Shown here: one piece after another, positions 1,351-25,871 of the stretch
Layout of the letters: the number at the start of each line of letters is the position of its first letter
Position numbering within the stretch: the stretch's first letter is position 1
From: Enterobacter sp. Ag1
GTDB taxonomy: Bacteria > Pseudomonadota > Gammaproteobacteria > Enterobacterales > Enterobacteriaceae
DNA length: 64,000 nt
Direction of reading: 5' to 3'
Assembly (NCBI GenBank): GCA_000277545.1
Contig: AKXM01000040.1
Location: 62,001 to 126,000, forward strand
Made by a program: the position numbers and the translations under genes
Notes under the pieces: model-generated
The model's database searches: none
Seen by the model: only the letters and a program-made list of their open reading frames with translations
Told to the model about the DNA's origin: nothing

Positions 1351-1357
1351 CCAGGAA

Positions 1358-2560: not shown

Positions 2561-2581
2561 TTCAGCCAGATAAGTTTAAAC

Positions 2582-2606
2582 AGGGGCCTTGATGGCCCCT
2601 CTTTAT
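2582..2606 (+). terminator. Rho-independent terminator after the cytochrome gene
   Basis: Perfect 7-bp stem AGGGGCC/GGCCCCT with loop TTGAT, followed by CTTTAT. It lies 21 nt after the cytochrome stop codon and closes the dehydrogenase operon. Confidence 0.75.
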
Positions 2607-2675
2607 CGGGGTTAGATTCGCCTGGCCTCGTGAAATTCGCTATCATCCGGCTCCACTCTCCAGCCGGGCAGCCCA

Positions 2676-3374
2676 ATGTCTACGATTATTGATACGTTTA
2701 TTGCCCCGCCTTGTTTTGATGAGATAGAAATTCTTTATCAGGACGAGCATCTGGCGTTGATCGATAAACCTTCCGGCTTGCTCAGCCTTTCAGGGAAAAA
2801 TCCGCAGAATCTTGACTCGGTGCATCATCGGCTGGTGCAGATATTCCCCGGCTGCACGCTGGTGCATCGCCTGGATTTCGGCACCTCCGGGCTGATGGTG
2901 ATTGCGCTGAATAAGGCGATCAATGCGTTGCTCTGCCAGCAGTTCAGCCAGCGTTCTGTTGCCAAGGTGTATACCGCGCTGCTTTGCGGGCATCTTGAAA
3001 AAGAGGAAGGAATGATCGACGCGGCGATTGCCAAAGATCCGGCGCTGTTTCCACTGATGTCGATTTGCGCCGTCAGCGGCAAACCTGCTCGCTCGCGTTA
3101 CACGGTGATTGAGCGGATTTATCGGGAACTTGAAAATGGTGCTCGGCTGCCGTTAACGAGGGTACAGCTTGCGCCTGAAACCGGGCGGACCCACCAGCTG
3201 CGCATCCATGCGCAATATCTTGGCCACCCGATTCTGGGCTGCGATCTGTATGGCGGGCTGGCGTTGTCAGGCACTGAACGAGTGCCGCGGCTGATGCTGC
3301 ATGCCAGCGAACTGCATTTTGTTCACCCGGTCAGCGGCGAACCGGTGGCTGCCAGATGCGACAGCCCATTCTGA
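2676..3374 (+). CDS. RluA-family RNA pseudouridine synthase
   Basis: Protein of 232 residues that isomerises uridine to pseudouridine in rRNA or tRNA. The catalytic motif is visible as VHRLDFGTSGL near residues 63-73, with the nucleophilic Asp in HRLD, and the second family signature appears as GRTHQLRIHAQYLGHPILG near residues 168-186. There is no N-terminal S4 domain, so it is RluA-like in architecture rather than RluC/RluD-like. It differs clearly from E. coli RluA (219 residues), so it is probably a paralogue with unknown target. It stands alone between a terminator and convergent ymjA. No strong Shine-Dalgarno sequence precedes the ATG. Confidence 0.85.
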   Translation: MSTIIDTFIAPPCFDEIEILYQDEHLALIDKPSGLLSLSGKNPQNLDSVHHRLVQIFPGCTLVHRLDFGTSGLMVIALNKAINALLCQQFSQRSVAKVYTALLCGHLEKEEGMIDAAIAKDPALFPLMSICAVSGKPARSRYTVIERIYRELENGARLPLTRVQLAPETGRTHQLRIHAQYLGHPILGCDLYGGLALSGTERVPRLMLHASELHFVHPVSGEPVAARCDSPF

Positions 3375-3398
3375 CGAGAAAATGTGTTGCGGCAGACA

Positions 3399-3644
3399 TT
3401 ACTCGTTGCCCCACTGATTCAGAAACTCAGCGATTTCGTCAATGCGCTGTTCGGCAAGGCCAGCCTCAACGGCCATCTCACCCTGCGCTTCCTCGCTGAT
3501 TTCCTCGTTATTCATTAAGCGGGTAATCAGCAGCTGGAAATAGTGCGCCACGGCATCACGCTCATCCTCGGCAACGGGCTTTGCCGCTTCCGTCGAGTAT
3601 TCGTCCGCGATGTCGTAATATTTCAGGTCGATTTCGTTGTTCAT
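3399..3644 (-). CDS. ymjA: YmjA-like small protein (DUF2543)
   Basis: A protein of 81 residues, closely matching my memory of E. coli YmjA in length and sequence, especially the C-terminus [15 protein letters not shown]...[14 protein letters not shown]. It is acidic and likely helical, with no signal peptide or membrane segment. The function is unknown. An upstream in-frame start exists, but the ATG at 3644 reproduces the family's N-terminus ([16 protein letters not shown]) and is preceded by AGAGATAAC. Its neighbour gstA is upstream on the same strand, 61 nt away. Confidence 0.85.
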
Positions 3645-3705
3645 GGTTATCTCTGGGTTTGTTAGCCTGGCCGCGATAATAGCATTGTTCAGCGGGCAAA
3701 AGGGA

Positions 3706-4311
3706 TCAGTGAGTTTCTTCCACACGGAGGGCTTCCTGCACCGCTGGCCGCGCGTTTATCGCCGTCATATAACGGGTAATAGCGGGCCACTGGTTAAGGT
3801 CGATTGATAACATTTTGCCCCAGCTCAGGACGGTATAAAGATAGGCATCAGCCACGCTAAAAGTGGAGCCGGTCAGGTACACAGTTTTCGAGAGCGCATC
3901 CTGAACAAAATCGAGCCGCTTGAAAAATTTTTCGCGGAAGATGGCTTTAACCTCTTCCGGCAGCGAGGCGTTGAACAGCGGGGCAGACGCGGTATGAAGT
4001 TCGCTGGTGATGAAATTCAGCCACTCCTGCAATCTAACCCGTGCCCAGCTTCCTGCCAGAGGCGCTAGCCCTTTTTCCGGGCGAAGATCGGCCAGGTACT
4101 GCACGATAGCCGTGCCTTCCGTCAGGATCTCCCCGTTGTCCAGCTCCAGCGCGGCAACATAGCCTTTGGGCGTGACGGTGAAAAAGTCTCGCCCGTCGGC
4201 GGTGATCTTAGTTTTGTTATCCACTTTGATGAGTTCGAATTCCAGCTCTAATTCACGCAGGACAATGTGGGGCGAGAGCGAACAAGCTTTTGGGGCGTAA
4301 TACAGTTTCAT
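3706..4311 (-). CDS. gstA: Glutathione S-transferase, beta class
   Basis: Cytosolic enzyme that conjugates glutathione to electrophiles. The 201-residue length equals E. coli GstA. The N-terminal thioredoxin-like domain begins [16 protein letters not shown] with the beta-class Cys10, and [13 protein letters not shown] is the glutathione-contacting segment. The C-terminal helical domain contains the family pattern [14 protein letters not shown]. Overall similarity to GstA is moderate, so this could be a GstA-like paralogue rather than the strict orthologue. The gene is divergent from a LysR-type regulator at 4441, a common arrangement when the regulator controls the neighbouring gene, but no direct evidence is visible. 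Confidence 0.82.
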
Positions 4312-5335: not shown

Positions 5336-6268
5336 TCACTGCCCGGTGTTTATCTCCTTCGCCAGCGTTTGCAGCCTCGATTTCAGCCAGTTGGTCGCGC
5401 TCCGCTTCCCGCTTCGTTTGTGTGAATAAATTTTTATTTCAAACGGACGTATTTCGAACGGTAATGAAAAAATCTTTATATTCGTGGCTGGCATCAGTTT
5501 TTCAGCGGCAAAGCGCGGCAGCGCCATTAGCAGATTGCTTTCTGCCACAATAAACGGCGCGCTAAGCATAGATGGCGTCTTGATGGCTATTTGCCGCGTG
5601 TAACCCATTTGCTCAAGCTGCCTGTCCAACACACCTTGCTTCTCATTCCACGGCGTGACAACGATGTGCCTTGCGGCGAGATAATCCTCAAATGTCAGCC
5701 GTGTCCGGCTTGGGTGACTGATGACGACATACTCATCTGTAAACCAGCTAATTTCTTCCAGCTCCGGATGCCGGATATCTTCTGAGGTACTGAACCCCAG
5801 CGCCAAATCCACTTCGCCCGCCAGAAGCTCCGTCAGTGCCGGTGTATGAGGCAAGTAAAGTAACTCGAAGCTCAGGCCGGGCGCTTCATGCTGCAGTTTG
5901 TGCATCAGGGCAGGGAAAATGCAAAAAGCGGTAAAATCCGTAATCGCTATCTGCAGGCGCTCTGTCGTCCGGGATGCGTCAAACTCCGGCTGCTGAGTCA
6001 GCTCTTGATCCAGGTATTTCAACGTCGAAGCAATAGAAGGGGCGAGCTGCGTGGCATACACGCTGGGACACATCCGGTGCCCTTCCCGGTAAAACAGCGG
6101 GTCATTGAGCGAGGCTCTCAGTCTCGACAGCGCGTGGCTAAGCGCCGAGGTGCTCATCGCCAGTTCATCGGCCGCCAGGCGGACGGAACGATGGCGATAA
6201 ATCGCGTCAAAAACAGGCAAAAGGTTTAAATCGATACGCCTTAAGGTTGGATGCATAATATTCATCAT
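5336..6268 (-). CDS. LysR-type transcriptional regulator (NodD/PcpR-like branch)
   Basis: Regulator of 310 residues. The N-terminal pattern LRRIDLNLLPVFDAIYRHRSVRLAADELAMSTSALSHALSRLR is typical of the LysR branch that includes NodD, LeuO-like and PcpR-like proteins. The effector-binding domain follows from about residue 100. Three in-frame ATGs (6268, 6265, 6256) lie close together, so the start is uncertain by up to four residues. It is divergent from the acetyltransferase gene at 6361 with a 92-nt shared promoter region, making that gene a candidate target. The ligand is unknown. Confidence 0.85.
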   Translation of the reverse strand: MMNIMHPTLRRIDLNLLPVFDAIYRHRSVRLAADELAMSTSALSHALSRLRASLNDPLFYREGHRMCPSVYATQLAPSIASTLKYLDQELTQQPEFDASRTTERLQIAITDFTAFCIFPALMHKLQHEAPGLSFELLYLPHTPALTELLAGEVDLALGFSTSEDIRHPELEEISWFTDEYVVISHPSRTRLTFEDYLAARHIVVTPWNEKQGVLDRQLEQMGYTRQIAIKTPSMLSAPFIVAESNLLMALPRFAAEKLMPATNIKIFSLPFEIRPFEIKIYSHKRSGKRSATNWLKSRLQTLAKEINTGQ

Positions 6269-6360
6269 CTGGTGATTTCATTACACTTAATTCGCCTGAC
6301 AATAACCTTTATGCTTGGGGCCAGCAACGTTAACGCCATCCAGAAATAACAGGAAAACCA

Positions 6361-6837
6361 ATGAGTATGACGATTCGTCAGGCCCGCCCGGAAGACGCTC
6401 AGGCTATTTACGACATGATCTATGAGCTGGCCGTGTATGAAAAAGCCCCTCAGGAAGTGATCACCACGCCAGAGGAGATCCGGGCGACGCTGTTTGACGC
6501 AGGCAGTAAAACTGAAGCGTTGATCTGCGAGACAGAAGGCAAAATTATCGGTTACGCCGTTTTCTTCACCAGCTACTCGACCTGGCTTGGGAGGAATGGT
6601 ATCTACATGGAGGATTTATACATCTCTCCTGAGTATCGCGGCAGGGGAGCGGGAAGGTCGTTACTGAAATATATCGCGCAGTGCGCGGTGCAGCGGCAGT
6701 GTGGCCGCCTGGAATGGTCTGTCCTGGACTGGAACCAGCCCGCGATTGATTTTTATCTGAGCATCGGGGCGTTGCCGCAATCGGAATGGGTTCGCTACCG
6801 CCTGGATGGTGAGGCATTATTGAAATTTGCCGATTAA
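6361..6837 (+). CDS. GNAT acetyltransferase, SSAT (diamine/spermidine)-like
   Basis: Acetyl-CoA-dependent N-acetyltransferase of 158 residues. The acetyl-CoA loop is visible as EYRGRGAGRSLL (about residues 92-103), and IYMEDLYISPEYRG plus WNQPAIDFYLSIGA match the layout of eukaryotic-type spermidine/spermine N1-acetyltransferases (LEDFFV..YRG, WNEPSINFYKRRGA). A polyamine, thialysine or other amine substrate is therefore plausible, but I cannot confirm it. A good Shine-Dalgarno sequence (AGGAAAACCA-ATG) fixes the start. It is divergent from a LysR regulator. A possible spermidine dehydrogenase lies 5 kb upstream. Confidence 0.8.
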   Translation: MSMTIRQARPEDAQAIYDMIYELAVYEKAPQEVITTPEEIRATLFDAGSKTEALICETEGKIIGYAVFFTSYSTWLGRNGIYMEDLYISPEYRGRGAGRSLLKYIAQCAVQRQCGRLEWSVLDWNQPAIDFYLSIGALPQSEWVRYRLDGEALLKFAD

Positions 6838-8200: not shown

Positions 8201-9619
8201 ATGAAATGGACTGCTTCGCTAATTTTGGGACTTACGCTCACCTCACCAGCTCTCGCCATAAACTTGCCCGAACCAGCGCCTGTTAAAAGCATCGAAGTAG
8301 TGCCCGGTACGACCGTACGCTTAGGGCCTGGGATCAATGCGGCTTATCGCGTGACGACTATGGCAGGGCTGAGCAGCGAAGTCTGGATATACACCGACTG
8401 CCGGACCGATGATAAAACGCTGCTGTTTATTAATGCGCAGGCGAATAAAAGTTTGCGCGTCTACGCGGTCAGCTCCATCAACCGCTATACGCCGGGGACG
8501 GCATTCGAGCCGGATGCGGACAGTCCGTTTATGACCACGCCAGGGCTGGATCTCTGTAAGCAGAATGTGCCGGAAGCGAAGTGGGCCGATGTCCCTTCCG
8601 CGAGTCAGAACGGTGAAAAGCGGTTTGTTGATGTCTCTAACAGCCAGCGTGAAGGGGCAATACTGAAAGCCCGGCTGGCGACAGACTTCGACAAAATCTA
8701 TCACGAAGAAAAATACGGTGCGCCTTACTCGGTAAAAATCGAGGATGTGGTCTTCAACTGCGTAAAAGCGGAGGGCATCGCAACCCGTACTTTCTCGCTG
8801 GATAACCAGGGAATGGCAACGGACACCTCAGCTGGGGAAAATAAAGTCCTCTCGCCGGAAACTGCAAGCGTTGCAAAAACGCTTTGTGGCGTCAGCAATC
8901 TGTCGAGCTACAAAGGCACGGGCGCGCTTGTCCGTCGTGACAAAGAGGCGGCCGATACCACGCCCGCTAAGCCGGATTTAGACAATAACACCCCGGCGGC
9001 ATTGCAGCGGTTTGCCCTTCCGGAGCAGGTGACAAATGCTATTGATAAAATCTTTACCGATCCGCAGCAAAAACCGGCTTTTCGCTCGATAAGTTTTACT
9101 CAGGTAAGCCAGGAAGGAGACGGCCTTACGCTTAGGGCAAAAGTCGATGCTCAGCCGGACGGCACGACGCTCACCGTGACGAAGATTAGCCTCGGCAATG
9201 CCGATTTCTATTCCCAGTATCAGCGCTTGTTTAACATGGTGGATGTGAAAAAGTGGGAAACCATGTCCGAAGCACCGTGGGTTAGCAAAAATCTGGAGAG
9301 CAATTTCACGCTCCCGGTGAAACCGGGCAAAACTTATTCCTCACGCAGCCAGGTTTACAACCAGGATAAGCCTGATACAGAGCAAACGCTAAGCCAGACC
9401 TGCGTGGCCGGTAAAGAATGGCAAAATGCTGCCGATATTCATCCTAATTTCCCTGGCCGCTACCTGGAGTTAATCTGTAAACAGGATCTCGGCGACGGCA
9501 AAGAAGCCAGCGGTGACTATGCCTATTTTGAAGACCTGCGCATGTTTATTCGCTTTGGTTATCAGGAGAGGGGTGAGGCGAAGCGGTTTATCTATAGCGA
9601 TGTGAACGTGGTGCGGTAG
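8201..9619 (+). CDS. Exported protein of unknown function, 472 residues
   Basis: I do not recognise the family. A signal peptide is clear (MKWTASLILGLTLTSPALA), and the mature protein has no further membrane segment or lipobox, so it is probably periplasmic. There are six cysteines in the mature part (an even number, suiting disulfides). A Pro/Asp-rich linker near residues 250-270 (DTTPAKPDLDNNTP) seems to separate two halves. Codon use and GC content resemble the surrounding core genes, unlike the AT-rich gene at 9906. It is monocistronic, with a weak Shine-Dalgarno sequence. No motif permits a function call. Confidence 0.7.
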   Translation: MKWTASLILGLTLTSPALAINLPEPAPVKSIEVVPGTTVRLGPGINAAYRVTTMAGLSSEVWIYTDCRTDDKTLLFINAQANKSLRVYAVSSINRYTPGTAFEPDADSPFMTTPGLDLCKQNVPEAKWADVPSASQNGEKRFVDVSNSQREGAILKARLATDFDKIYHEEKYGAPYSVKIEDVVFNCVKAEGIATRTFSLDNQGMATDTSAGENKVLSPETASVAKTLCGVSNLSSYKGTGALVRRDKEAADTTPAKPDLDNNTPAALQRFALPEQVTNAIDKIFTDPQQKPAFRSISFTQVSQEGDGLTLRAKVDAQPDGTTLTVTKISLGNADFYSQYQRLFNMVDVKKWETMSEAPWVSKNLESNFTLPVKPGKTYSSRSQVYNQDKPDTEQTLSQTCVAGKEWQNAADIHPNFPGRYLELICKQDLGDGKEASGDYAYFEDLRMFIRFGYQERGEAKRFIYSDVNVVR

Positions 9620-9905
9620 TTTAGCGTCATTTCCAGCATTTCATATCTGACAGCAGCATTCTCTTCTCACGGATGCTGCAACTCAGCCTGGTCTGCTGAT
9701 GTGACTCTGGCCGCAGATTAAGTGGTTTATTCATATTCATGATTAGACGTAAAAAGAATAAGGTCACTGTATAGGCACAATCGTTTATACAGCAATGATA
9801 GGTTTATAACTTTTTTAAATTACTACTTCGCGCACAGTAGCTTTTCGGAAATTAAATAATAACCCTGTCACCCAGGGGGCAATACTACTAAAAAAGGAAT
9901 TACCA
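9620..9905. other. AT-rich intergenic stretch
   Basis: 286 nt without a gene. It becomes strongly AT-rich toward the right end, just before the AT-rich gene at 9906. A short hairpin CCCTGTCACCCAGGG lies near 9862-9876, about 30 nt before the start codon. I see no RNA gene or mobile element. Confidence 0.5.
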
Positions 9906-10616
9906 ATGAAGGCAAGAATGTTATTTATCTTATCAGTTTTGGCAGTGTCATTTAATGTCGATGCATTGACTCAATTCAAACCGGCTGTTTTAAATGCTGC
10001 TCTTTTGTTTGATCATAATCCAACTACCGGTCACGTAAAGCATAGTGTTCAGTCGATTAGAGATGAGCAAGGAAAACTTCTGGTGATGACGGAGGTTAAG
10101 TACGATCGCAGCGGGTGTTTCACTAATATCAATATGGTTGATATGGTCAATGGTCGAATTTTCCATGTAGTCAATAAAGATGGAGTACTAAGCTCTTTTG
10201 AAGGTCAGAGTATTACTGGAAAGGTTAATAAGAGCTGCGAAATAACTGAGCTTGAGAATGATCAGGGAAAATATACTCTCACTTATAATGTGCACGGTTT
10301 GCTTGAAAAAATGGTGGACAAAAATACGGGCAAAGTTGCAACGCTATATGAGTATCGCAATAGCCAATTCCCTGAGCGTATAAGAGATTACAATGAACCA
10401 AGAGACGATCGCTTTTTTTATCCATCAGGAAGCGCGCAATTCATGGACTCGGAGCTAGTATCAAAAAGTCAGTACTTCACCGTCAGGGTGAAGCAAAGCT
10501 GTACTTATACCGATGATGGTAATGCAGACAAATGCTCGATGATATCCTCTGTTAAGGATGATTATCACGGTGCAACACAGTTGTGGATGACTAGTCACGA
10601 AACAGAATACTTCTGA
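9906..10616 (+). CDS. AT-rich exported protein, unknown
   Basis: I do not recognise this 236-residue protein. It has a signal peptide (MKARMLFILSVLAVSFNVDA) and four cysteines in the mature part. Repeated strand-like phrases such as YTLTYNVHGLLEKMVDKNTGKVATLYEYRN faintly recall beta-rich RHS/YD-like segments, but that is weak. The base composition is clearly more AT-rich than its neighbours, with many ATA, AGA and TTA codons, suggesting horizontal acquisition. The start has a good Shine-Dalgarno sequence (AAAAAGGAATTACCA-ATG). It converges with yaiL, with a hairpin between them. Confidence 0.65.
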   Translation: MKARMLFILSVLAVSFNVDALTQFKPAVLNAALLFDHNPTTGHVKHSVQSIRDEQGKLLVMTEVKYDRSGCFTNINMVDMVNGRIFHVVNKDGVLSSFEGQSITGKVNKSCEITELENDQGKYTLTYNVHGLLEKMVDKNTGKVATLYEYRNSQFPERIRDYNEPRDDRFFYPSGSAQFMDSELVSKSQYFTVRVKQSCTYTDDGNADKCSMISSVKDDYHGATQLWMTSHETEYF

Positions 10617-10693: not shown

Positions 10694-11233
10694 TTACCAC
10701 ATCAAATCATCAGGCACCACGAAGTCCGCATACGGATCGTCTTCGTCTTTGTCTTCCGGAGCCAGGTCGCTGCTCAGCACGATAAAGCTGGTGTCGCGCT
10801 GTTTAATTTTATCGGCAACGCCTGCGGGAATAATGGCGTATTCGCCTTCAGGATTTTTATCTGAAATCAGGCGGGCGATGGCCAGGCGGCCTTTAATCAA
10901 CTGAGTCTGGGTTACTTTATCGACGTAGACTTTTTTAATTAAGTTATTGTCCGTGAAGTTATAGCCGATATCACCCTTCGAAATAACAATGCGGTTCATT
11001 TCGATCAGCTGCTTGATCTGCGCTTTATATTCTTTGGCTAAAGTGGCCTGCTTTTGCTGTTCGCTGAGTTCTTTATCGCGCTCAACCTGAGCCTGTTTGT
11101 TGGCTTCCACGGCTTCCCGAGCTTCACGAGCCTGCACGCGTGATTTCTTCGCGGTGCGCTGCACTTTAGCCACTTTTTTGCTGCTGACCAGGCCTGCTTT
11201 GAGCATCTGCTCTTGTAACGTAAGTTTTGTCAT
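10694..11233 (-). CDS. yaiL: YaiL, DUF2058 nucleoprotein
   Basis: The 179-residue length equals E. coli YaiL, with strong similarity along the chain: the basic N-terminus MTKLTLQEQMLKAGLVSSKKVAKVQRTAKKSR, a long Lys/Gln-rich coiled region (about residues 30-70), NRIVISKGDIGYNFTDNNLIKKVYVD in the globular half and the invariant end DEDDPYADFVVPDDLMW. The family is described as nucleoid- or polynucleotide-associated, with no defined biochemical role. In E. coli it lies elsewhere on the chromosome, so its place beside argW is a local rearrangement. Confidence 0.92.
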   Translation of the reverse strand: MTKLTLQEQMLKAGLVSSKKVAKVQRTAKKSRVQAREAREAVEANKQAQVERDKELSEQQKQATLAKEYKAQIKQLIEMNRIVISKGDIGYNFTDNNLIKKVYVDKVTQTQLIKGRLAIARLISDKNPEGEYAIIPAGVADKIKQRDTSFIVLSSDLAPEDKDEDDPYADFVVPDDLMW

Positions 11234-11389
11234 GTTCTTTTCGACGGCTGAGGGATCGTTGCAGGGATTATATCCTTAATGCTTCCGGTGATTCCATGCT
11301 GTGGATATGCAAAGCTCACCGCATTGATAGCAGAAGGTATTTTTAATGACGAGTCTGAAAGAAAGGCAGAGCAGAAAGGTGAAATCTAA

Positions 11390-11464
11390 TGGCGTTCCCT
11401 GCAGGAATCGAACCTGCAACTAGCCCTTAGGAGGGGCTCGTTATATCCATTTAACTAAGGGAAC
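11390..11464 (-). tRNA. argW: tRNA-Arg (CCU anticodon)
   Basis: On the minus strand a 7-bp acceptor stem GTTCCCT/AGGGAAC is followed by the G discriminator and an encoded CCA. The T arm GCAGGTTCGATTCCTGC is perfect, and the anticodon loop CTCCTAA gives CCU (11429-11431), which reads AGG. It is adjacent to yfdC, as argW is in E. coli. The 3' half of argW is a well-known prophage attachment site, but no integrase or duplicated 3' end is visible here. Confidence 0.96.
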
Positions 11465-11539
11465 GCGGCGGGCGTAGTATACCCGCTTTTCGAGGCAGGT
11501 TAAGGGGTTGGCGGTCCGTTTGCCTGGAAGATGAACAAT

Positions 11540-15404: not shown

Positions 15405-17356
15405 TGCCGGAAATCGGTGGGTTCCTGCTAAGCCTGGCGCTTGGTTGGTCTTTGCTATTAAGCGTTTATCCACTCTGGGGCGTGGCGCGCGGTGACAAGC
15501 GGCTGATGGCCTCCGCGCGGCCGTTTAGCTGGGCGCTGTTTATCACCCTTTGCGCATCATTCCTGATACTGGTTAACGCCTTCGTGGTGAACGACTTCAG
15601 CGTACTTTACGTCGCCAACAACTCGAATACCGAGCTGCCGGTCTGGTATCGCGTGGCGGCCACCTGGGGGGCGCACGAAGGGTCATTGATGCTGTGGGTG
15701 CTGATGATGAGCGGCTGGACGTTTGCCGTTGCTCTCACCGGGCGCAGCATGCCAAAAGAAGATCACGCCCGCGTGTTGGCTGTCATGGGGATGATTAACT
15801 TCGGCTTCCTGCTGTTTATTATTTTCACCTCCAATCCGTTTATCCGCACGCTGCCGGACTACCCGCTGGAAGGGCGAGATTTAAACCCGCTGCTACAGGA
15901 CATCGGCCTGATTCTGCACCCGCCGCTGCTGTATATGGGGTATGTAGGTTTTTCTGTGGCGTTTGCTTTCTCGATTGCGGCGCTGCTGGGCGGCAGGCTG
16001 GACAGCGCCTGGGCGCGCTGGACTCGCCCGTGGACGCTGGCGGCCTGGGCTTTCCTGACCGTGGGGATTGTGCTGGGTTCGGCGTGGGCTTATTACGAAC
16101 TGGGCTGGGGCGGCTGGTGGTTCTGGGACCCGGTAGAAAACGCCTCGTTTATGCCGTGGCTGGCGGGCACGGCGCTTATCCACTCGCTTTCCGTTACCGA
16201 AAAACGCGGCAGCTTTAAAGCCTGGACGGTGCTGCTGGCGATAAGCGCCTTCTCGCTTTGCCTGCTGGGGACGTTCCTGGTTCGCTCCGGCGTGCTGGTG
16301 TCGGTGCATTCCTTTGCGTCCGATCCGGCGCGCGGCATGTTTATTCTGGCTTTCCTGGTGGTCGTTATCGGCGGTTCGCTGCTGCTGTATGCGGTCAAAG
16401 GCAGCAAAGTCCGCTCCCGCGTGAGCAACGATCTCTGGTCGCGCGAGTCTTTCCTGCTCGGCAACAACGTCCTGCTAATTGCCGCCATGCTGGTGGTTCT
16501 GCTGGGCACGCTGCTGCCGCTGGTGCATAAACAGCTTGGCCTCGGCAGCATTTCCATCGGGGAGCCGTTCTTCAATACGATGTTTACTGCGTTGATGGCC
16601 CCGTTTGCGCTGATGCTCGGCATTGGGCCGCTGGTTCGCTGGCGGCGCGACGAGCCGGGCAAGCTGCGCAAACATCTGCTGGCGGCGGTGGTTATCACGC
16701 TGATTCTGTCGCTGCTTTTACCGTGGCTGATGCAGGATAGCGTAGAGGCAATGACGGTGGTCGGCCTGCTGATGGCCGTCTGGGTCTTTGTGCTGGCGCT
16801 GATGGAGGTTTATCAACGCGCCACGCATCGCCACGGCTTCTGGGATGGGTTACGCAAAATTCCTGCCAGCCACTGGGGGATGGTTTCCGCGCATTTGGGC
16901 CTGGCGGTGACGGTGGTTGGCATCGCCTTTAGCCAGAGCTACAGCGTCGAGCGCGATGTGCGCATGAAGTCCGGCGACAGCATTGATATTCATCAGTACC
17001 ACTTTGTGTTCCGGGAAGTGCGGGACATCACCGGCCCTAACTACCGCGGTGGTGTGGGCGTGATTGACGTCACCCGCCACGGCAAGCCGGAAGCCACGCT
17101 GCACGCCGAAAAGCGTTTCTATAACAGCAATCGGGCGATGATGACCGAGGCGGCCATCGACGGCGGTTTCACCCGTGACCTTTATGCCGCGCTGGGCGAA
17201 GAGCTGGACGATGGCAGCTGGGCGGTGCGCCTGTATTACAAACCTTTCGTGCGCTGGATTTGGGCGGGCGGGCTGCTGATGGCCCTCGGCGGGCTTTGCT
17301 GCCTGTGTGACCCGCGTTATCGCAGCCGTAAAGTTAAGCCGGAGGCCGCAGCATGA
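15401..17356 (+). CDS. ccmF: CcmF, cytochrome c heme lyase subunit
   Basis: Large polytopic protein (651 residues, about 15 helices) that with CcmH attaches heme to apocytochromes. The WWD motif is seen as [19 protein letters not shown] (about residues 235-253), and histidine motifs include [11 protein letters not shown] and [13 protein letters not shown] periplasmic C-terminal region contains [14 protein letters not shown]. It overlaps ccmE and ccmG by 4 nt each. Confidence 0.96.
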
Positions 17357-19755: not shown

Positions 19756-19771
19756 GTGCTACCTGGATGTG

Positions 19772-19800
19772 AAAAAGCGAACATTGATGTTCGCTTTTTT
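19772..19800 (+). terminator. Rho-independent terminator after mlaA
   Basis: Perfect stem AAAAAGCGAAC/GTTCGCTTTTT with loop ATTGAT, ending in a T-run. It separates mlaA from the SPFH operon. Confidence 0.88.
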
Positions 19801-19855
19801 ATTGTCATAACACTGACATAAAATGACACATCTTTACTCGCCAGCATTTTGTGTT

Positions 19856-19878
19856 GGTATGTTATAAAATAACAATCC
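19856..19878. promoter_or_regulatory. Putative Zur (zinc uptake regulator) box upstream of the SPFH/P1B-ATPase operon
   Basis: The core TGTTATAAAATAACA is a perfect inverted repeat (TGTTAT/ATAACA). Extended to 23 nt it matches the gamma-proteobacterial Zur consensus as I remember it (GAAATGTTATA-N-TATAACATTTC) at 17 of 22 defined positions. It lies 44 nt before the first ATG and after the mlaA terminator, where an operator would act on the operon's promoter. Family knowledge: Zur represses zinc-acquisition genes when zinc is plentiful. Confidence 0.7.
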
Positions 19879-19921: not shown

Positions 19922-21886
19922 ATGCCACCTACCCGGTTACCCGAAGCTGAACTGCTGCCTCAGGCGCTGCCCGCTCGCTATTCGCTGGCCGGCGCGCAGG
20001 CCCGACTCGCCGCGCGTGCGGTGTTCGCCTTAACCTTCTTGCTGTTTATGATGCTCCTGCTGGCGCTGACGGTCAGTATCCTGGAGCCAGCTTCCCGCTG
20101 GGTCGCTTTACTCTGCAGCAATGCCGCAGCGCTTTTGTTATTGGTTGTTTCGCTGCACGCGACGCAGCGTATTTGCCAGTGGCGAAGCTTTAAGTTTTCC
20201 CCACCGATTGAGCCTTCGGTTCAGGAGGAAGAAGCGCCCAAGAATCCTCTTTTAAGCTGGCTTACGGGCCTGGTGCCGTTAAATTTTGCCCGGGCTGAAG
20301 CTTTGTTTAAGGCAGAAGGCATCTGGTCCGGGGCGCTTGCCGCGCTGGCGTTCTATATTGCGTTTTCTGGCTGGAGTAGCCGCTACGTTCCCCTGCTGGA
20401 CAATAATAACCGCTGGATAGCTGTAGCGTGCCTGGCAGGATCCGTCTTTGTGCTGCTGGTGGCCGAACGGCATCTCAGTGCGGTATCGAAAGAAGCTTCC
20501 CCGGAAGCCGGGTCGATAGCGCCGCTGCTGCGCCTGGTGATGGCGGTACAGGTACTGAGTTTACCGGGACTTGTCTGGCCACAGCTCAACAGTGCACTGG
20601 CGATAAACTTGCCCGCTGCGCTGGTACTGTTGGTTGCCGTCGAGTTTATGCTGCGCGGGCTGTTTTCTCTGTTCGCACCCCCCGGAGACGGCACGACAGA
20701 GCCCAGGCTTATCCCCAAAAGCCAACTGGCCGCCCAGCTAACCTGGCCGCCGCGCCCGCTCGGGTTTTTACAGCAGGAGCTGCACCAGCGGTTTGGCATC
20801 GATCTTCGCCAGGTCTGGGCCTTCAGCGTCCTGAAGCGCGCGTTTATCCCGATGGTGACCCTGATGGTGATCTGCGGCTGGTTGTTGACCGGGCTGCAGC
20901 AAATCTCAGCCACCGAACGCGGCGTGTATGAGCGCTTTGGCCGCTCTGTGGCGGTGCTGGAGCCGGGGCTGCATCTGGGGCTGCCCTGGCCGTTTGGTCG
21001 GGTGCAGTTGACCGAAAATGGGCAGGTGCATGAGCTGGCTGCCGGGGAAGATCCAGCCAGCCAACCTCCTGTAAAACGCGCCGATGCTGAAGGCCCCGCG
21101 CCCGCCAGCGCCGACAGGCTTTGGGATGCCACCCACAACTTCGACAAAGCACAAATTATCGCCAGCCAGAGCGGGGATCGGCAAAGCCTACAGATCGTTA
21201 ACAGCGACGTGCGCTTTATGTGGCGTATTGGCTTGACTGATAACGCCGCGCTGGCGGCAACCTACCGGGCAGTGAACCTGTCTGATCTGGTGCGCAGCAC
21301 GGCAAATGAGGTGTTGGTACATCAGTTCTCGTCTTTAACGCTGGATGATGTCCTGAGCGAGCGGCGTGACGACCTGGCCGGGCAGATTAACCAGGCCGTG
21401 CAGCAGCAACTGGATAACCTGCACAGCGGCGTGGAAATCCTTTCTACCGTCGTGGAGGCGATTCATCCGCCTGCCGGGGCGGCCGACGCTTTTCATGGTG
21501 TACAGGCCGCGCAGATTGCCGCGCAGTCGCTGATTCTGAGAGAGCAGGGAAGTGCGGCAGAAAAAGCCGCGATTGCCGCGACCAATGCTGCAGTGCGCGA
21601 AAACACGGCGCAGGTTAATGCTACCGAAGCGCTAAGCGAAGCTCAGGCAACGGCCACCCGCTTTGCCGCGCAGAAGAATGCTTACCAGCAGGCAGGGCAG
21701 GTCTTTATCGACGAGCTTTGGTTTAAACAGCTTCAGCAGGCCCTCAGCGGCCGCCCATTATTGGTCATTGACCAGCGAATTGGTGCCGGTTCGCCGCCCA
21801 CGCTCGATCTGCGTGATTTCCCTACTTCTACCGATGCGGCGCGGCGTGACGCGCCCGCTAAACCCGCACAGGAGCTTTCCCGGTGA
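19922..21886 (+). CDS. HflK-like SPFH protein with large N-terminal membrane domain
   Basis: 654 residues. The first ~325 form about seven hydrophobic segments (approximately 33-54, 59-80, 133-150, 164-182, 198-218, 226-250, 306-325). An SPFH/band-7 domain follows directly, opening with ATERGVYERFGRSVAVLEPGLHLGLPWPFG (from about 330). An Ala/Gln/Glu-rich helical region lies near 510-600. HflK and prohibitins normally have one membrane anchor, so this membrane extension is unusual. Known SPFH proteins build ring- or cage-like membrane assemblies, and HflKC encloses the FtsH protease. It is the first gene of a four-gene operon and overlaps the next by 4 nt. Role unknown; scaffolding the P1B ATPase is my inference. 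Confidence 0.8.
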   Translation: MPPTRLPEAELLPQALPARYSLAGAQARLAARAVFALTFLLFMMLLLALTVSILEPASRWVALLCSNAAALLLLVVSLHATQRICQWRSFKFSPPIEPSVQEEEAPKNPLLSWLTGLVPLNFARAEALFKAEGIWSGALAALAFYIAFSGWSSRYVPLLDNNNRWIAVACLAGSVFVLLVAERHLSAVSKEASPEAGSIAPLLRLVMAVQVLSLPGLVWPQLNSALAINLPAALVLLVAVEFMLRGLFSLFAPPGDGTTEPRLIPKSQLAAQLTWPPRPLGFLQQELHQRFGIDLRQVWAFSVLKRAFIPMVTLMVICGWLLTGLQQISATERGVYERFGRSVAVLEPGLHLGLPWPFGRVQLTENGQVHELAAGEDPASQPPVKRADAEGPAPASADRLWDATHNFDKAQIIASQSGDRQSLQIVNSDVRFMWRIGLTDNAALAATYRAVNLSDLVRSTANEVLVHQFSSLTLDDVLSERRDDLAGQINQAVQQQLDNLHSGVEILSTVVEAIHPPAGAADAFHGVQAAQIAAQSLILREQGSAAEKAAIAATNAAVRENTAQVNATEALSEAQATATRFAAQKNAYQQAGQVFIDELWFKQLQQALSGRPLLVIDQRIGAGSPPTLDLRDFPTSTDAARRDAPAKPAQELSR

Positions 21887-22896
21887 GCCATTCCCACTCT
21901 CATGGACATCATGATCACCACCACGGCCACGGCTGCAGTCATGGCTACTCTTCCGCCCCGGAAGGGGGTAAAAAAGGCGCCTGGAAGCGTATTACCGCCG
22001 CCGTTTTTTTGGTCGTTATTCTGCTTGCGGCTGCGAGCCTGGTGCAGGTGAGATCCGGTGAATCACTGGTGATCACCCGTTTCGGCAAACCCGTCCGCGT
22101 GCTGCTGGAGCCGGGGCTTGCCTGGCGGCTGCCTGCCCCTTTTGAAACGGCAACGGTGGTGGATCTGCGCCTGCGGACGACGTCCAGCGGGCTGCAGGAT
22201 GTCGGCACGCGCGATGGCCTGCGGATCATCGTTCAGTCCTACGCGGTATGGGAAGTGGACAGCACGCCTGAACACGTGCAGCGGTTTATGCGGGCGGTGC
22301 AAAACCAGCCGGATGAAGCGGCCCGGCAAATTCGCACCTACTTAGGCTCAGCGCTGGAAACCACCGCCAGCGGCTTCACGCTTTCTCAACTGGTGAACAC
22401 CGACGGCAAGCAGGTTCAGCTGGCGGAGTTTGAATCGCATCTTCAACAGCAAATCAGCCAGCCGCTGCTGCAAAGTTACGGCATCAGGCTGGTGCAGATG
22501 GGCACCGAACGCCTGACGTTGCCGGCCGTGACGCTCAACGCCACGGTTGACCGTATGCGAGCAGAGCGTGAAACCATTGCGATTGAGCGCACGGCGGAAG
22601 GTAAGCGCGCTGCGGCAGAGATTCGTTCCGCCGCCGATCGCGATGCTCGCATCACCGAAGCTCAGGCCTCAGTGAAAGCGGCGGATATCGAAGCCCAGGC
22701 CCAGGTACAAACGGCGTCCATCTACGGTAAAGCTTATGCCAGCGCCCCGCAGCTTTATAGCCTGCTGCGCCAGATTGACGCGCTTAGCGGCATGGTGAAT
22801 GCGCAAACCCGACTGGTGCTGCGTACCGATGCCAAACCGTTCAGCCTGCTAGTTGACGGGCCGCAAATGGATAAAGCGGCGGATAAAAAACCATGA
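21883..22896 (+). CDS. HflC/HflK-like SPFH protein with His-rich N-terminus
   Basis: 337 residues, starting at a GTG within the upstream stop (GTGA overlap) with AGGAG eight bases before it. The first 20 residues contain ten His (MSHSHSHGHHDHHHGHGCSH), a pattern like the metal-binding loops of zinc and nickel transporters and chaperones. One transmembrane helix follows at about residues 36-56, then the SPFH domain (SGESLVITRFGKPVRVLLEPGL) and a coiled-coil region rich in Ala/Glu/Arg (about 225-285). The tail probably faces the cytoplasm by analogy with HflK topology, which is inference. Neighbours and the Zur-like box suggest a metal-related role. Confidence 0.82.
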   Translation: MSHSHSHGHHDHHHGHGCSHGYSSAPEGGKKGAWKRITAAVFLVVILLAAASLVQVRSGESLVITRFGKPVRVLLEPGLAWRLPAPFETATVVDLRLRTTSSGLQDVGTRDGLRIIVQSYAVWEVDSTPEHVQRFMRAVQNQPDEAARQIRTYLGSALETTASGFTLSQLVNTDGKQVQLAEFESHLQQQISQPLLQSYGIRLVQMGTERLTLPAVTLNATVDRMRAERETIAIERTAEGKRAAAEIRSAADRDARITEAQASVKAADIEAQAQVQTASIYGKAYASAPQLYSLLRQIDALSGMVNAQTRLVLRTDAKPFSLLVDGPQMDKAADKKP

Positions 22897-23945
22897 CTGA
22901 ACGGCAAAAACTTGAGCCCGGTGGGCCGTGGACGCAGTCGATTCGGCTGGCGTTTATCGCGATCTTTGTGCTGACGCTGTTTGCCGCCGGGGCGTGGTTG
23001 CTGTCGAATGTCCGGCAAATTCCGCCGGGCAGCAGGGCCGTGGTGCTGCGCTTCGGCGCTGAGCAGCGCGTGGCCGAGCCTGGCTTGCTGCTTGCCTGGC
23101 CCGCGCCGGTAAATGAAGTAGTGATGGTGCCAGGACCGGATCGGGTGATTGAACACCGGGTGACCGCGCTGCTGCGCTCGTCCGAAGCGCAAAGCCTGGA
23201 TATCAACGGTGGCCCCGGCAATGATGCTGTTTCGGGCTCTGGTTTCTTGCTCACCGGTGATGCGGGCGTTGTGCAACTGGATATTAGCGTATTTTATCGG
23301 GTCAGAACGCCAACTGCTTACGTCTTACAGGACAAGCATGTCCTGCCGCTGCTGGACCGGCTGGTCGAGCGCGCGGCGGTCGCGGTTTGTGCTTCCCGCG
23401 ATCTGGATACCATTCTGGTTGCCCGGCCCGAAATGCCCGGCAACGATATGAACGTGGCGCAGCAGCGCGAACAGCTGCGGAGCGACGTGCAGCGGAATAT
23501 CGAACAGAATTTGCTGCGGCTTCAGCAGTCGGGGAGCGATGCGGGGATTACTCTTGAGCGGGTGACCGTGCAGTCTGCTTTACCGCTGACGACCGTGGCG
23601 GCATTCAATGCGGTCTTAACCGCCAGCCAGCAGGCCTCGAAAGCGATCGCGACGGCGCAAAGCGATGCCTCATTAACGCGGCAAAAGGCGGTTCAACAGG
23701 CCGACCAGATGCTGCAAACTGCCCAGGCAAAAGCGCAGGAGAGCGTGGCGAAGGCGCAGTCGGACACGGCGACAATTGCCCGTCTGGCCAGCAACCATGA
23801 CGATCCTGATTTGCTGGGACGTATTTATCGCCAGCGAATAGCCGGGATCCTGTCCCAGGCCGGGTCGGTAATCACCGTGTCGCCGCAGGATGATGCGCAT
23901 TTGATCCTACAGGGTGTAGCGCAACAAGAGGCGACGAAACCATGA
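22893..23945 (+). CDS. HflC-like SPFH protein
   Basis: 350 residues. A single N-terminal transmembrane helix (LAFIAIFVLTLFAAGAWLL, about residues 19-37) precedes an SPFH domain beginning NVRQIPPGSRAVVLRFGAEQRVAEPGLLLAWP. A long helical segment rich in Ala/Gln/Lys (about 250-300) resembles the coiled coil through which prohibitin-type proteins oligomerise. It overlaps both neighbours by 4 nt (ATGA), so it is translationally coupled. It is distinct from the housekeeping hflKC pair, which belongs next to hflX in enterobacteria and is not in this window. Confidence 0.82.
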   Translation: MTERQKLEPGGPWTQSIRLAFIAIFVLTLFAAGAWLLSNVRQIPPGSRAVVLRFGAEQRVAEPGLLLAWPAPVNEVVMVPGPDRVIEHRVTALLRSSEAQSLDINGGPGNDAVSGSGFLLTGDAGVVQLDISVFYRVRTPTAYVLQDKHVLPLLDRLVERAAVAVCASRDLDTILVARPEMPGNDMNVAQQREQLRSDVQRNIEQNLLRLQQSGSDAGITLERVTVQSALPLTTVAAFNAVLTASQQASKAIATAQSDASLTRQKAVQQADQMLQTAQAKAQESVAKAQSDTATIARLASNHDDPDLLGRIYRQRIAGILSQAGSVITVSPQDDAHLILQGVAQQEATKP

Positions 23946-25843
23946 CTTCTTCTGTACAAGCCGGTGGGGCACTGACCCGCCAGGAGCAGCGGCATATTAC
24001 CCGCCAGTTGATGCTGGCGCTGGTGGCCAGCGGGGCGCTGATTCTGGGGCTGCTTTGGCGGTGGCTGGCACCTCAGCAGGTTGCCGTCGGCGATTTACTT
24101 TTGGGCGCTGCCTCGGTTGTTGTGGCTGTTCCGGTGCTGCGCCACGCGCTGCATAGCCTGCGCTACCCCAGCCTGCACGGATTGACCGACCAGCTTATCG
24201 CGCTGGCATTGCTGGGTGCCTGGGCGACCGGGGATCTTCTGACCGCCGCGCTGCTGCCGCTGATCATGATCGTCGGGCATATTCTCGAAGAGCGCAGCGT
24301 GATTGGGTCGCAGGAAGCTATTGCCGCGCTGAGCAAACTCACGCGCAGCCGGGCGCGGCGCTTAAGCGCGGACGGTGAATTACAGGATATTGACAACCAC
24401 GATCTCGAACCCGGCGATGTGGTCGAGGTTCGTGCCGGGGACCATATTCCTGCCGACGGCCTGGTGCTGGAAGGCAAAGCCAGCCTGGACACGGCACCGA
24501 TTACCGGGGAGTCCGTACCGCAGGAAGTTGTGCCGGGTGCGGAAGTTTTTGGCGGGGCGATAAATCTGGATGGTCTGCTGCGCATCCGGGTTACGCGTAC
24601 CGGAGAGACCTCGACGCTGGGGCGCGTGATCGCCCTGATGCAAAGCGCGGAACAGGCAAGCCCGCCGATAACGCGTTTGCTCGAGCGCCACGCGGCGCGT
24701 TATTTGCTTTTGGTGCTGATGATTGCCGCCAGCACCTGGTTCCTGACGCAGGATGCCCAGGCGATGCTGGCCGTCTTGGTGGCAGCCTGTCCCTGCGCGC
24801 TGGTGCTTTCCGCCCCGGCATCATCTATTGCCGGGCTGACGGTGGCCGCCCGCCACGGCATTTTAATTCGCGGCGCGGCCTTTCTTGAGGAGCTGGCGGA
24901 GATCAACGCCGTGGTGGTCGACAAGACCGGTACGCTAACCCACGGCAGGCTACACCTGCAGGCCGTGGCGCCTTATGGCGATACCGATCCCACTTTGCTG
25001 CAAACCCTGGCGGCCAGCCTGGGCGCGACCAGCAATCACCCGGTCAGCCGCGCGGTAAGCGAGATTGTTTCGCGGGAAGCCTGGCTGCCTCTCGAAAATG
25101 TGCGTGAGCATCAGGGGCTAGGCGTTTCCGCCTCTACACCGCAGGGAGAAGCGGTGCTTGGCAGGCGTGAGCTGTTAGCCTCCACTTTGACCGTCTTACC
25201 TGCAGCCCCTGAGCACGATGGCCCGATTGTCGGGCTGGCGCTGGATGGCCGTTTTCTTGGCTGGCTGCTGCTGGCCGATAGTCTGCGAAGTGAGGCGGCA
25301 ACGGCGATGGCCGAGCTGCGCGATCTTGGGCTAAACCGACAGCTTTTACTGACCGGCGATCGCCAGTCGGTTGCGGACAAAATTGCGCACCAGGTGGGGA
25401 TCGCTGACGTAGTGGCCGGGGCGCTGCCCGCGGATAAGCTGACGCAGGTGAAACGGCAAATCGACAGCGGCTACCGGCCTATGGTTATCGGCGATGGCAT
25501 CAACGATTCGCTGGCACTAAAGGCTGGCGTGGTGGGCGTGGCAATGGGGGCCGGTGGGTCCGACATCGCGATGTCTTCGGCGGATATTGTCTTGATTGGC
25601 AGCGATCTTCGCCGGCTGGGCACCTGCGTGCGCCTGAGCCGCCGCTGCCGTCGGACTTTGCAGGTCAACGTGTTTATCGGCCTGGGCTGGACGCTGGCCA
25701 TTGTCGCGATGGCGGCTTTTGGCTGGCTTGGCGCTTCTGGCGCAGTTATTGCTGCGCTGTTGCATAATCTCAGCACGCTGCTGGTGCTCGGCAATGCGGG
25801 AAGATTACTGCGGTTTGAAGAGAAGCTAAACGAGCAGGCATAA
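23942..25843 (+). CDS. P1B-type heavy-metal-translocating ATPase of uncertain metal specificity
   Basis: 633 residues with the full P-type catalytic set: TGES (188-191), CPC in TM6 (283-285), DKTGT with the phosphorylated Asp327, the P1B HP dipeptide (366-367), TGDR (471-474) and GDGIND (517-522). Eight membrane helices are expected. There is no N-terminal metal-binding domain; the chain begins about 20 residues before TM1. The Lys in TM7 and DxG in TM8 that mark Zn/Cd/Pb exporters are absent: TM7 reads NVFIGLGWTLAIV and TM8 LLHNLSTLLVLGNAGRLL. Cu-ATPase signatures (YN in TM7, MxxSS in TM8) are also missing. It is the last gene of the SPFH operon, and the metal and direction are unknown. The His-rich SPFH partner could substitute for the missing metal-binding domain (inference). 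Confidence 0.88.
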   Translation: MTSSVQAGGALTRQEQRHITRQLMLALVASGALILGLLWRWLAPQQVAVGDLLLGAASVVVAVPVLRHALHSLRYPSLHGLTDQLIALALLGAWATGDLLTAALLPLIMIVGHILEERSVIGSQEAIAALSKLTRSRARRLSADGELQDIDNHDLEPGDVVEVRAGDHIPADGLVLEGKASLDTAPITGESVPQEVVPGAEVFGGAINLDGLLRIRVTRTGETSTLGRVIALMQSAEQASPPITRLLERHAARYLLLVLMIAASTWFLTQDAQAMLAVLVAACPCALVLSAPASSIAGLTVAARHGILIRGAAFLEELAEINAVVVDKTGTLTHGRLHLQAVAPYGDTDPTLLQTLAASLGATSNHPVSRAVSEIVSREAWLPLENVREHQGLGVSASTPQGEAVLGRRELLASTLTVLPAAPEHDGPIVGLALDGRFLGWLLLADSLRSEAATAMAELRDLGLNRQLLLTGDRQSVADKIAHQVGIADVVAGALPADKLTQVKRQIDSGYRPMVIGDGINDSLALKAGVVGVAMGAGGSDIAMSSADIVLIGSDLRRLGTCVRLSRRCRRTLQVNVFIGLGWTLAIVAMAAFGWLGASGAVIAALLHNLSTLLVLGNAGRLLRFEEKLNEQA

Positions 25844-25845
25844 AA

Positions 25846-25871
25846 AAAGCGCCTTCTGATGAAGGCGCTTT
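25846..25871. terminator. Bidirectional terminator between the ATPase gene and fadL
   Basis: Eleven-bp perfect stem AAAGCGCCTTC/GAAGGCGCTTT with loop TGAT and A/T runs on both sides. It ends the SPFH operon on the plus strand and fadL on the minus strand. Confidence 0.85.

Follow-up and report, generated by a model that had tools for sequence, protein, structure and literature searches.

Which task joins three SPFH (HflK/HflC-like) proteins to a metal pump in a single operon? The question is raised by a 64,000-nucleotide stretch of the Enterobacter sp. Ag1 genome (contig AKXM01000040.1, positions 62,001 to 126,000), here called the window, in which positions 19922-25843 of the forward strand form a four-gene operon of three SPFH genes followed by a gene for a P1B-type ATPase. 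The explanation that we favour, with a probability of roughly 60%, is a horizontally spread, Zur-repressed zinc-uptake operon, in which an SPFH scaffold is dedicated to a P1B ATPase of zinc starvation.

All four genes lie on the forward strand. Gene 1 (19922..21886) encodes an HflK-like SPFH protein of 654 amino acids (Pfam Band_7, E 2.8e-22), gene 2 (21883..22896, GTG start) an HflC-like SPFH protein of 337 amino acids (Band_7, E 1.1e-29), gene 3 (22893..23945) another HflK-like SPFH protein of 350 amino acids (Band_7, E 5.4e-20) and gene 4 (23942..25843) a P1B-type ATPase of 633 amino acids, the HmtA counterpart, assigned by TIGR01525 and Pfam. A first-pass annotation of this DNA had described three SPFH proteins and a P1B ATPase with 4-nt overlaps at every junction. 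This description holds, with Band_7 in genes 1-3, TIGR01525 above its cut-off in gene 4 and overlaps of GTGA, ATGA and ATGA in order. The source genome has 6 Band_7 proteins in total, the operon trio, HflK and HflC (both NCBIfam) and one more, which we take to be QmcA (no NCBIfam match at 1e-40). Elsewhere it also encodes ZntA, CopA and a second copper-type ATPase. Because the genome already has its own HflK, HflC, ZntA and copper ATPases, the four-gene set is additional.

By sequence comparison the operon is the counterpart of the hmtA operon of Pseudomonas aeruginosa, and its gene composition is already on record. The PA2439-PA2434 locus of P. aeruginosa combines three HflK/HflC-family genes with the P-type ATPase HmtA (table 2 of PMC4542158). 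Its layout is PA2439, PA2438, PA2437, (PA2436), hmtA (PA2435) and PA2434 (PMC4542158, PMC11761036), and the SPFH genes are also called PaFlo5-PaFlo7. The view of the first-pass annotation that no system of such composition had been described has to be given up, since this locus is on record and a counterpart was found among our sequences. The latter, L153, is from a P. aeruginosa-like genome (98% azurin match) and stands in for the named PAO1 sequences. Its identities to genes 1-4 are 44, 70, 56 and 72%, it has the same order of HflK-like, HflC-like and third SPFH gene followed by the P1B ATPase gene, and its HflC-like protein has a His-rich tail as in gene 2. In L153, however, the third SPFH gene is followed by a small open reading frame (8481-8969, no Pfam match) and the ATPase gene by a DUF4946 gene (10977-11522); the window operon has neither and shows 4-nt overlaps throughout. 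The accessory genes PA2436 and PA2434 are not present in the window operon: gene 3 runs into gene 4 with an overlap, and 2 nt past gene 4 begins a terminator hairpin (25846..25871; terminator scan, fold -18.8 kcal/mol) that separates this gene from fadL, which is convergent. Two further loci (L155 and L069) have 0.6-0.7 kb between their genes 3 and 4.

A Zur-type operator of 17 bp, ATGTTATAAAATAACAA (19859..19875), begins 63 bp before the start codon of gene 1; this operator and the identity with the hmtA operon are new beyond the first-pass annotation. It has 2 mismatches to RTGTTATANTATAACAY and is one of 3 such sites in the 4.75-Mb genome; the other two sites with at most 2 mismatches stand before znuA/znuC and zigA. 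Similar operators adjoin the genes of ZnuA/ZnuC, ZigA (a zinc chaperone GTPase), ZinT, FolE2 and type B L31, all above NCBIfam cut-offs, and are also found beside genes for an AztA-like ATPase of a zinc ATP-binding cassette (ABC) transporter, just below its cut-off, and a TonB receptor. These loci of the source genome (L166-L172: znuA/znuC, zigA, zinT, folE2, L31, AztA-like and TonB receptor) read as a predicted Zur regulon. A matrix was made from 7 chosen genome places that resemble the window site (10 rows of the list of 24 places with up to 3 mismatches). The window operator scores 23.3 with it, compared to 7.9 for the next non-overlapping site in the 64 kb, 13.3 for the highest score in 15 random 64-kb sequences and 1.9 for L153, to which the window site is much superior.

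For comparison across genomes, 93 loci were used (the window, L037-L122 and L153-L158), all of them obtained via gene 1 or gene 2. By the matrix, the best upstream site comes first within its locus in 62 of the 93 and no lower than third in 85. A relaxed palindrome, defined with the sites already in view, lies no more than 200 bp from gene 1 in 79/93 loci versus 10/4555 control stretches, and a first scan for a 15-base consensus with up to 4 mismatches found it upstream in 82/93 loci versus 59/1744 control stretches. The operator-bearing loci are not independent, because they are mostly from related Pseudomonas. With an operator at 2 mismatches before its first gene, the operon is very probably under Zur repression, which zinc starvation would lift. 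Neighbouring zinc-starvation genes were considered as additional support and set aside. A ZigA-like, FolE2, amidase or dihydroorotase gene is present in the flank of 54/93 loci, which amounts to about one observation, because these loci are Pseudomonas, perhaps with a single neighbourhood inherited from their ancestor, and three query genes come from such loci.

For the P. aeruginosa counterpart, a response to zinc limitation is described in several reports. PA2434, PA2435 and PA2437-PA2439 are up 5.6-14.4-fold in a znuA mutant and a weak Zur site is predicted (PMC4542158), Zur shifts the PA2439 promoter in a gel (PMC8531726), and the proteins of the hmtA operon rise in zinc depletion, with few significant changes (PMC11761036). 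N-acetylcysteine raises PA2437-PA2439 by log2 0.6-0.8, which was read as zinc chelation (PMC9431628). HmtA is also described as increased with calprotectin in P. aeruginosa. The claim that HmtA is an importer reportedly dates from 2009 (Lewinson et al., as cited in other papers). HmtA is reported as a zinc/copper importer (PMC8456098), and its overexpression reportedly raises cell zinc and copper and causes hypersensitivity (told in PMC10393844). Induction by zinc starvation, binding of Zur and the import direction are thus taken from the literature on the counterpart and would apply to the Enterobacter operon by analogy. The Zur operator and this literature together indicate zinc uptake in starvation, where the first-pass annotation had named neither the metal nor the direction of transport. 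Efflux or metal resistance as the first choice was dropped because of the Zur operator. Copper as the only metal is conceivable, as PMC8531726 suggests copper for HmtA; a hint in this direction is a PCu(A)C chaperone gene near one Paraburkholderia locus, which also has zinc ABC transporter genes.

The first-pass annotation had proposed a genome search for the four-gene set, and the set turns out to stay together: all 93 loci, on chromosomes and on plasmids, have the four genes in the same order. Exact 4-nt overlaps, with start codons set by rule, are present in 58/93, 77/93 and 68/93 loci for junctions 1, 2 and 3. Gene 2 was found in 8/8 genomes of the source genus, 5/394 genomes of the order (E <= 1e-60) and 12/397 genomes of the phylum (E <= 1e-50), and in 1/192 genomes in the class of an alphaproteobacterial-side carrier, which is that carrier itself. 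An independent search for the ATPase (E <= 1e-100, up to 3 candidates scored per genome) also found 12/397 phylum genomes, the same 12 as for gene 2, and no ATPase without gene 2 was seen in this sample at that threshold. Ten plasmid records carry gene 2 (Rhizobium 7, Klebsiella aerogenes, Burkholderia ubonensis and Paraburkholderia sprentiae), and the same 10 records were obtained for gene 1 (top matches) and gene 4. Among the 50 of 80 plasmid records listed for the ATPase, identity drops from 56-69% in those 10 to 37.7%, and no ATPase of at least 56% identity occurs there without genes 1 and 2.

A search of contigs yielded at least 257 relatives. The best 80 of these are, by title, 72 Pseudomonas, 5 Buttiauxella and one each of Marinomonas, Enterobacter sp. 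Cy-643 and 'gamma proteobacterium L18'. New here is that the four genes travel together across alpha-, beta- and gammaproteobacteria, on chromosomes and plasmids. A class-wide search with gene 1 (369 genomes) found no close gene 1 outside the source genome; the matches in 310/369 genomes at E <= 0.001 were taken for ordinary HflK, because the best one outside reaches only E 1.9e-13 and 25% identity. The ratios of non-synonymous to synonymous substitution rates (dN/dS) against 7 congeners are 0.072-0.091 for gene 1, 0.023-0.045 for gene 2, 0.008-0.044 for gene 3 and 0.043-0.067 for gene 4, values that point to strong purifying selection on all four genes. The operon is not a chance assembly, since 8/8 genomes of the genus carry gene 2 and dN/dS lies at 0.008-0.091. 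Pairwise distances among the four genes correlate with r 0.91-0.97 (38 thinned loci, operon genes only), which is to be read as shared history and not as contact, because the comparison lacks an unrelated control gene. As far as sampled, the four-gene set is mobile, rare and patchy, yet fixed in the source genus. Its co-occurrence argues for a common machine. Together with the conserved overlaps and the profile matches to HflK/HflC structures, it supports the dedicated SPFH-plus-pump unit that had been suggested in the first pass.

The ATPase itself is distinct from the known exporters of the source genome. Gene 4 reaches 522.5 bits with TIGR01525 (heavy-metal P-type ATPase, cut-off 346.25) and stays under the ZntA family cut-offs (NF033775, 294.7/1240 bits; NF008262, 318.6/1005 bits), both of which the genome's own ZntA passes, and under the cut-off for CopA-type copper ATPases (TIGR01511, 356.1/397 bits). 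HmtA-type ATPases form one clade (100/100), to which neither ZntA nor the copper ATPases of the source genome belong. Pfam finds the domains E1-E2_ATPase and HAD hydrolase only, and no HMA domain. The expected membrane metal site, Cys-Pro-Cys at residues 283-285 (24788..24796, forward strand), is CPC in 93/93 loci, and the DKTGT motif is likewise present in all 93. In the last membrane helix, LLHNLSTLLVLGN, His608-Asn609 (25763..25768, forward strand) belong to an HN..T pattern that also occurs in 93/93 loci. The HN pair was considered as a mark unique to the HmtA type and ruled out, as a Roseburia P1B ATPase has HN too. A P1B ATPase whose last helix reads HQLS is encoded on three alphaproteobacterial plasmids (L199-L201); among the plasmid matches listed, no Pseudomonadota relatives beyond the HmtA clade are nearer. 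Two of these plasmids are annotated, and in both the ATPase gene comes after a small gene of copper-chaperone or heavy-metal-associated type.

The topology of the SPFH proteins was derived from hydropathy and profile matches. Gene 1 has about 7 membrane helices within residues 33-325 (hydropathy peaks, manually grouped), followed by an SPFH region (327-543) and a helical tail, both presumed to be periplasmic. HflK has one membrane helix. Single membrane helices were found at residues 38-56 of gene 2 and 19-37 of gene 3. In the PDB, genes 1 and 3 match the E. coli HflK structure by profile and gene 2 matches E. coli HflC (E 1.1e-23). The HflK cut-off (TIGR01933, 159.4 bits) is unreached by gene 1 with 77.9 and gene 3 with 95.6 bits and the HflC cut-off (TIGR01932, 134.4 bits) by gene 2 with 91.5 bits; HflK and HflC of the source genome are well over the NCBIfam cut-offs. 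In the SPFH tree, genes 2 and 3 each form one clade apart from the HflK/HflC rows, with gene 2 as sister to HflC, and gene 1 forms one clade save for a very long QmcA row inside, the placement of which is unreliable.

Both gene 1 and gene 2 carry conserved His. In gene 1 these are H370 (92/93 loci), H405 (93/93), H467 (90/93), H515 (93/93) and H525 (93/93). The corresponding HflK columns have His in only 1, 1, 3, 0 and 0 of 30 sequences, a set consisting of the source genome's own HflK and 29 chosen by similarity. H351 is His in 91/93 loci, yet also in 15/30 HflK. Conserved charges lie in or near the membrane part (E182, R183, R204, E241 and R245). Gene 2 begins with a His-rich N-terminal tail, SHSHSHGHHDHHHGHGCSHG (21886..21945, forward strand), followed by positively charged residues and the membrane helix; at least 5 His occur within the first 40 residues in 91/93 loci. 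The tail is presumed to be cytosolic, from the positive-inside rule and the analogy to HflC, and is likely metal-binding. The gene 1 His, the gene 2 tail and the ATPase motifs would fit a zinc-handling scaffold round a zinc pump. Some individual gene 2 copies deviate: the copy on the Klebsiella aerogenes plasmid (L037) has just 1 His in the first 40 residues, and in Buttiauxella agrestis (L044, ~8968-9972, also L133) gene 2 contains an in-frame TAG stop. Other Buttiauxella copies are open at this position, so that a sequencing error or recent decay comes into consideration.

The gene set, its co-occurrence, the operator sequence and the His-rich features, all read directly from the DNA, could be joined in the following way. 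When cytosolic zinc falls, Zur would come off its operator (19859-19875), and translation of the four genes would be coupled. With an N-terminal membrane anchor and, beyond it, a part that resembles HflK/HflC, each of the three SPFH proteins would contribute to a mixed inner-membrane ring or dome, and this would hold the HmtA-type P1B ATPase. The presumed-periplasmic His of gene 1 would concentrate zinc on the entry side, and the ATPase with its CPC and HN sites would move it into the cytosol, where it would be taken over at the exit by the His-rich tails of gene 2. In this scheme we infer the single SPFH cage, the enclosure of the pump, the topology and the roles of the His. A stricter version is tentative: here the HmtA-type ATPase would not act by itself but as the core of a zinc-import nanomachine, with a hetero-oligomeric SPFH dome of three kinds of subunit, one having about 7 membrane helices, enclosing the pump, His of the ring capturing periplasmic zinc and a cytosolic His crown receiving it. 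If true, SPFH enclosure could explain how a P1B ATPase works as an importer.

Several observations weigh against a Zur-repressed zinc-uptake operon with a dedicated scaffold. At 3 mismatches the Zur pattern matches 24 places of the genome versus 17 for a reversed control pattern, so these looser matches are mixed. The 14/93 loci without the relaxed palindrome include the P. aeruginosa-like L153 and every one of the 6 plasmid loci, and the two gene 2 tails outside the 91 have 1 and 4 His. For HmtA, a 2022 review states that the import direction needs confirmation and lists hmtA as an exception to Zur binding (PMC10393844), in contrast to the gel shift in PMC8531726. In the latter, hmtA mRNA was low and not repressed by added zinc, and the authors suggest mainly copper import. 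P. aeruginosa PA14 without the three SPFH counterparts showed normal growth in lysogeny broth (LB) and marginally less biofilm (PMC13086221). Finally, a physical complex of the SPFH proteins with the ATPase is something that we infer.

Different roles for the same genes were therefore weighed. The SPFH trio might be a zinc-starvation form of HflKC, acting as a regulator of FtsH, which is a zinc metalloprotease, or in the quality control of membrane proteins, with the ATPase sharing the promoter only. Genes 1-3 do match HflK and HflC, the partners of FtsH, and the P. aeruginosa genes have been called FtsH/HflB partners (PMC9431628, PMC11761036). FtsH is, however, nearly universal (also PMC13086221), whereas gene 2 and the HmtA-type ATPase share the same 12/397 genomes. 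Genes 1-3 are also under the HflK/HflC cut-offs while the genome keeps its own HflK and HflC, and gene 1 has about 6 extra membrane helices, which makes a role at FtsH unlikely.

Metal P-type ATPases usually export. If the pump of this operon worked outward as well, it could fill a periplasmic SPFH chamber with zinc for periplasmic enzymes, or expel a wrong metal that leaks in via zinc importers when zinc is short. The doubt about HmtA import (PMC10393844) suits this, and the His tail of gene 2 could serve as a funnel to an exporter, like PacL1 beside CtpC (PMC9374683). Outward transport is nevertheless rather improbable, in view of the reported gain of cell zinc and copper and the hypersensitivity upon HmtA overexpression (told in PMC10393844) and of a Zur operator, which is expected before uptake genes, although there are bacteria in which Zur can switch on efflux genes (PMC10393844). 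Finally, the genes could be co-regulated neighbours only, with the SPFH proteins forming a general membrane microdomain and the ATPase working alone, as the phenotype of HmtA overexpression (told in PMC10393844) and the postulated nature of the SPFH-ATPase complex would allow. This is very improbable, given a gene order that is constant in 93/93 loci on plasmids and chromosomes and an ATPase that was never met without gene 2 (phylum, E <= 1e-100), nor, at 56% identity or more, in any of the 50 plasmid records listed (of 80) that lacks genes 1 and 2.

A zinc-uptake operon with a dedicated SPFH scaffold would connect two lines of work. In the literature searched, no paper was found that joins HmtA, zinc and SPFH, and none that joins SPFH, P-type ATPase, operon and HflK; the link between the SPFH half and the HmtA half was not found there, and two papers point to FtsH (PMC11761036, PMC9431628). 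The excerpts of two HmtA reviews (PMC8456098, PMC10393844) do not mention HflC or PA2439, and the words HmtA and ATPase are absent from the main text, as excerpted, of the work on the SPFH genes (PMC13086221), which thus looked at them without the pump. Because every HmtA-type ATPase found here is accompanied by three SPFH proteins, studies of HmtA by itself may have dealt with only part of a machine. If the trio cages the pump, HflK/HflC-type cages gain a second defined client beside FtsH, and a simple testable phenotype, growth in low zinc. The co-occurrence makes the question of a common machine testable.

In the source genome the operon is flanked by mlaA (NCBIfam-confirmed) and fadL (Pfam-confirmed). 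Its upstream boundary is a hairpin terminator after mlaA (19769..19802, forward strand), an inverted repeat GCGAACAT..ATGTTCGC followed by a T run with a fold of -17.0 kcal/mol, seen by eye and by folding and absent from the list of the terminator scan. Terminators on both flanks, as annotated earlier, are thus present, and only the four genes sit between the two hairpins. The insertion between mlaA and fadL was also confirmed. The two genes are close to each other in E. coli but not directly adjacent, as had been assumed, since an open reading frame and a partial pseudogene separate them (one record). The operon DNA has zero megablast matches among 20,395 E. coli records. In Buttiauxella agrestis the operon is flanked by tamA-msrA and paeA, not by mlaA-fadL. 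On the K. aerogenes plasmid (L037, conjugative by typing) it lies near a Tn3-family transposase gene (~15604-17191), and on the P. sprentiae plasmid (L040) the record annotates GTP-binding, zinc/metal ABC transporter, DUF2946 and PCu(A)C copper chaperone genes nearby (1-3847 and 6209-6658).

The partner gene NfeD of flotillin-NfeD operons is not among the four genes between the hairpins. With the exporters ZntA and CopA, gene 4 shares the P1B architecture with CPC, DKTGT and the HAD domain, but it belongs to a separate clade, no HMA domain was found in it and its last helix has HN instead of DSGAT (ZntA) or MALSS (CopA). The PacL1-CtpC platforms or effluxosomes of Mycobacterium are similar in the way they work, as a metal-binding membrane scaffold and a P1B ATPase are encoded in one operon. 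PacL is a DUF1490 protein, the platforms export zinc in excess and their foci are reportedly flotillin-independent (PMC9374683); the proposed scaffold of this operon is SPFH, and none of the four operon proteins has a Pfam match to DUF1490. E. coli HflK-HflC, the cage of FtsH (PDB 7vhp, 7wi3), shares the SPFH domain, the helical tail (by profile) and the N-terminal membrane anchor with the operon proteins. The trio differs from it in lying under the family cut-offs, in consisting of three genes, not two, in the approximately 7 membrane helices of gene 1 and in having a metal ATPase as its operon partner.

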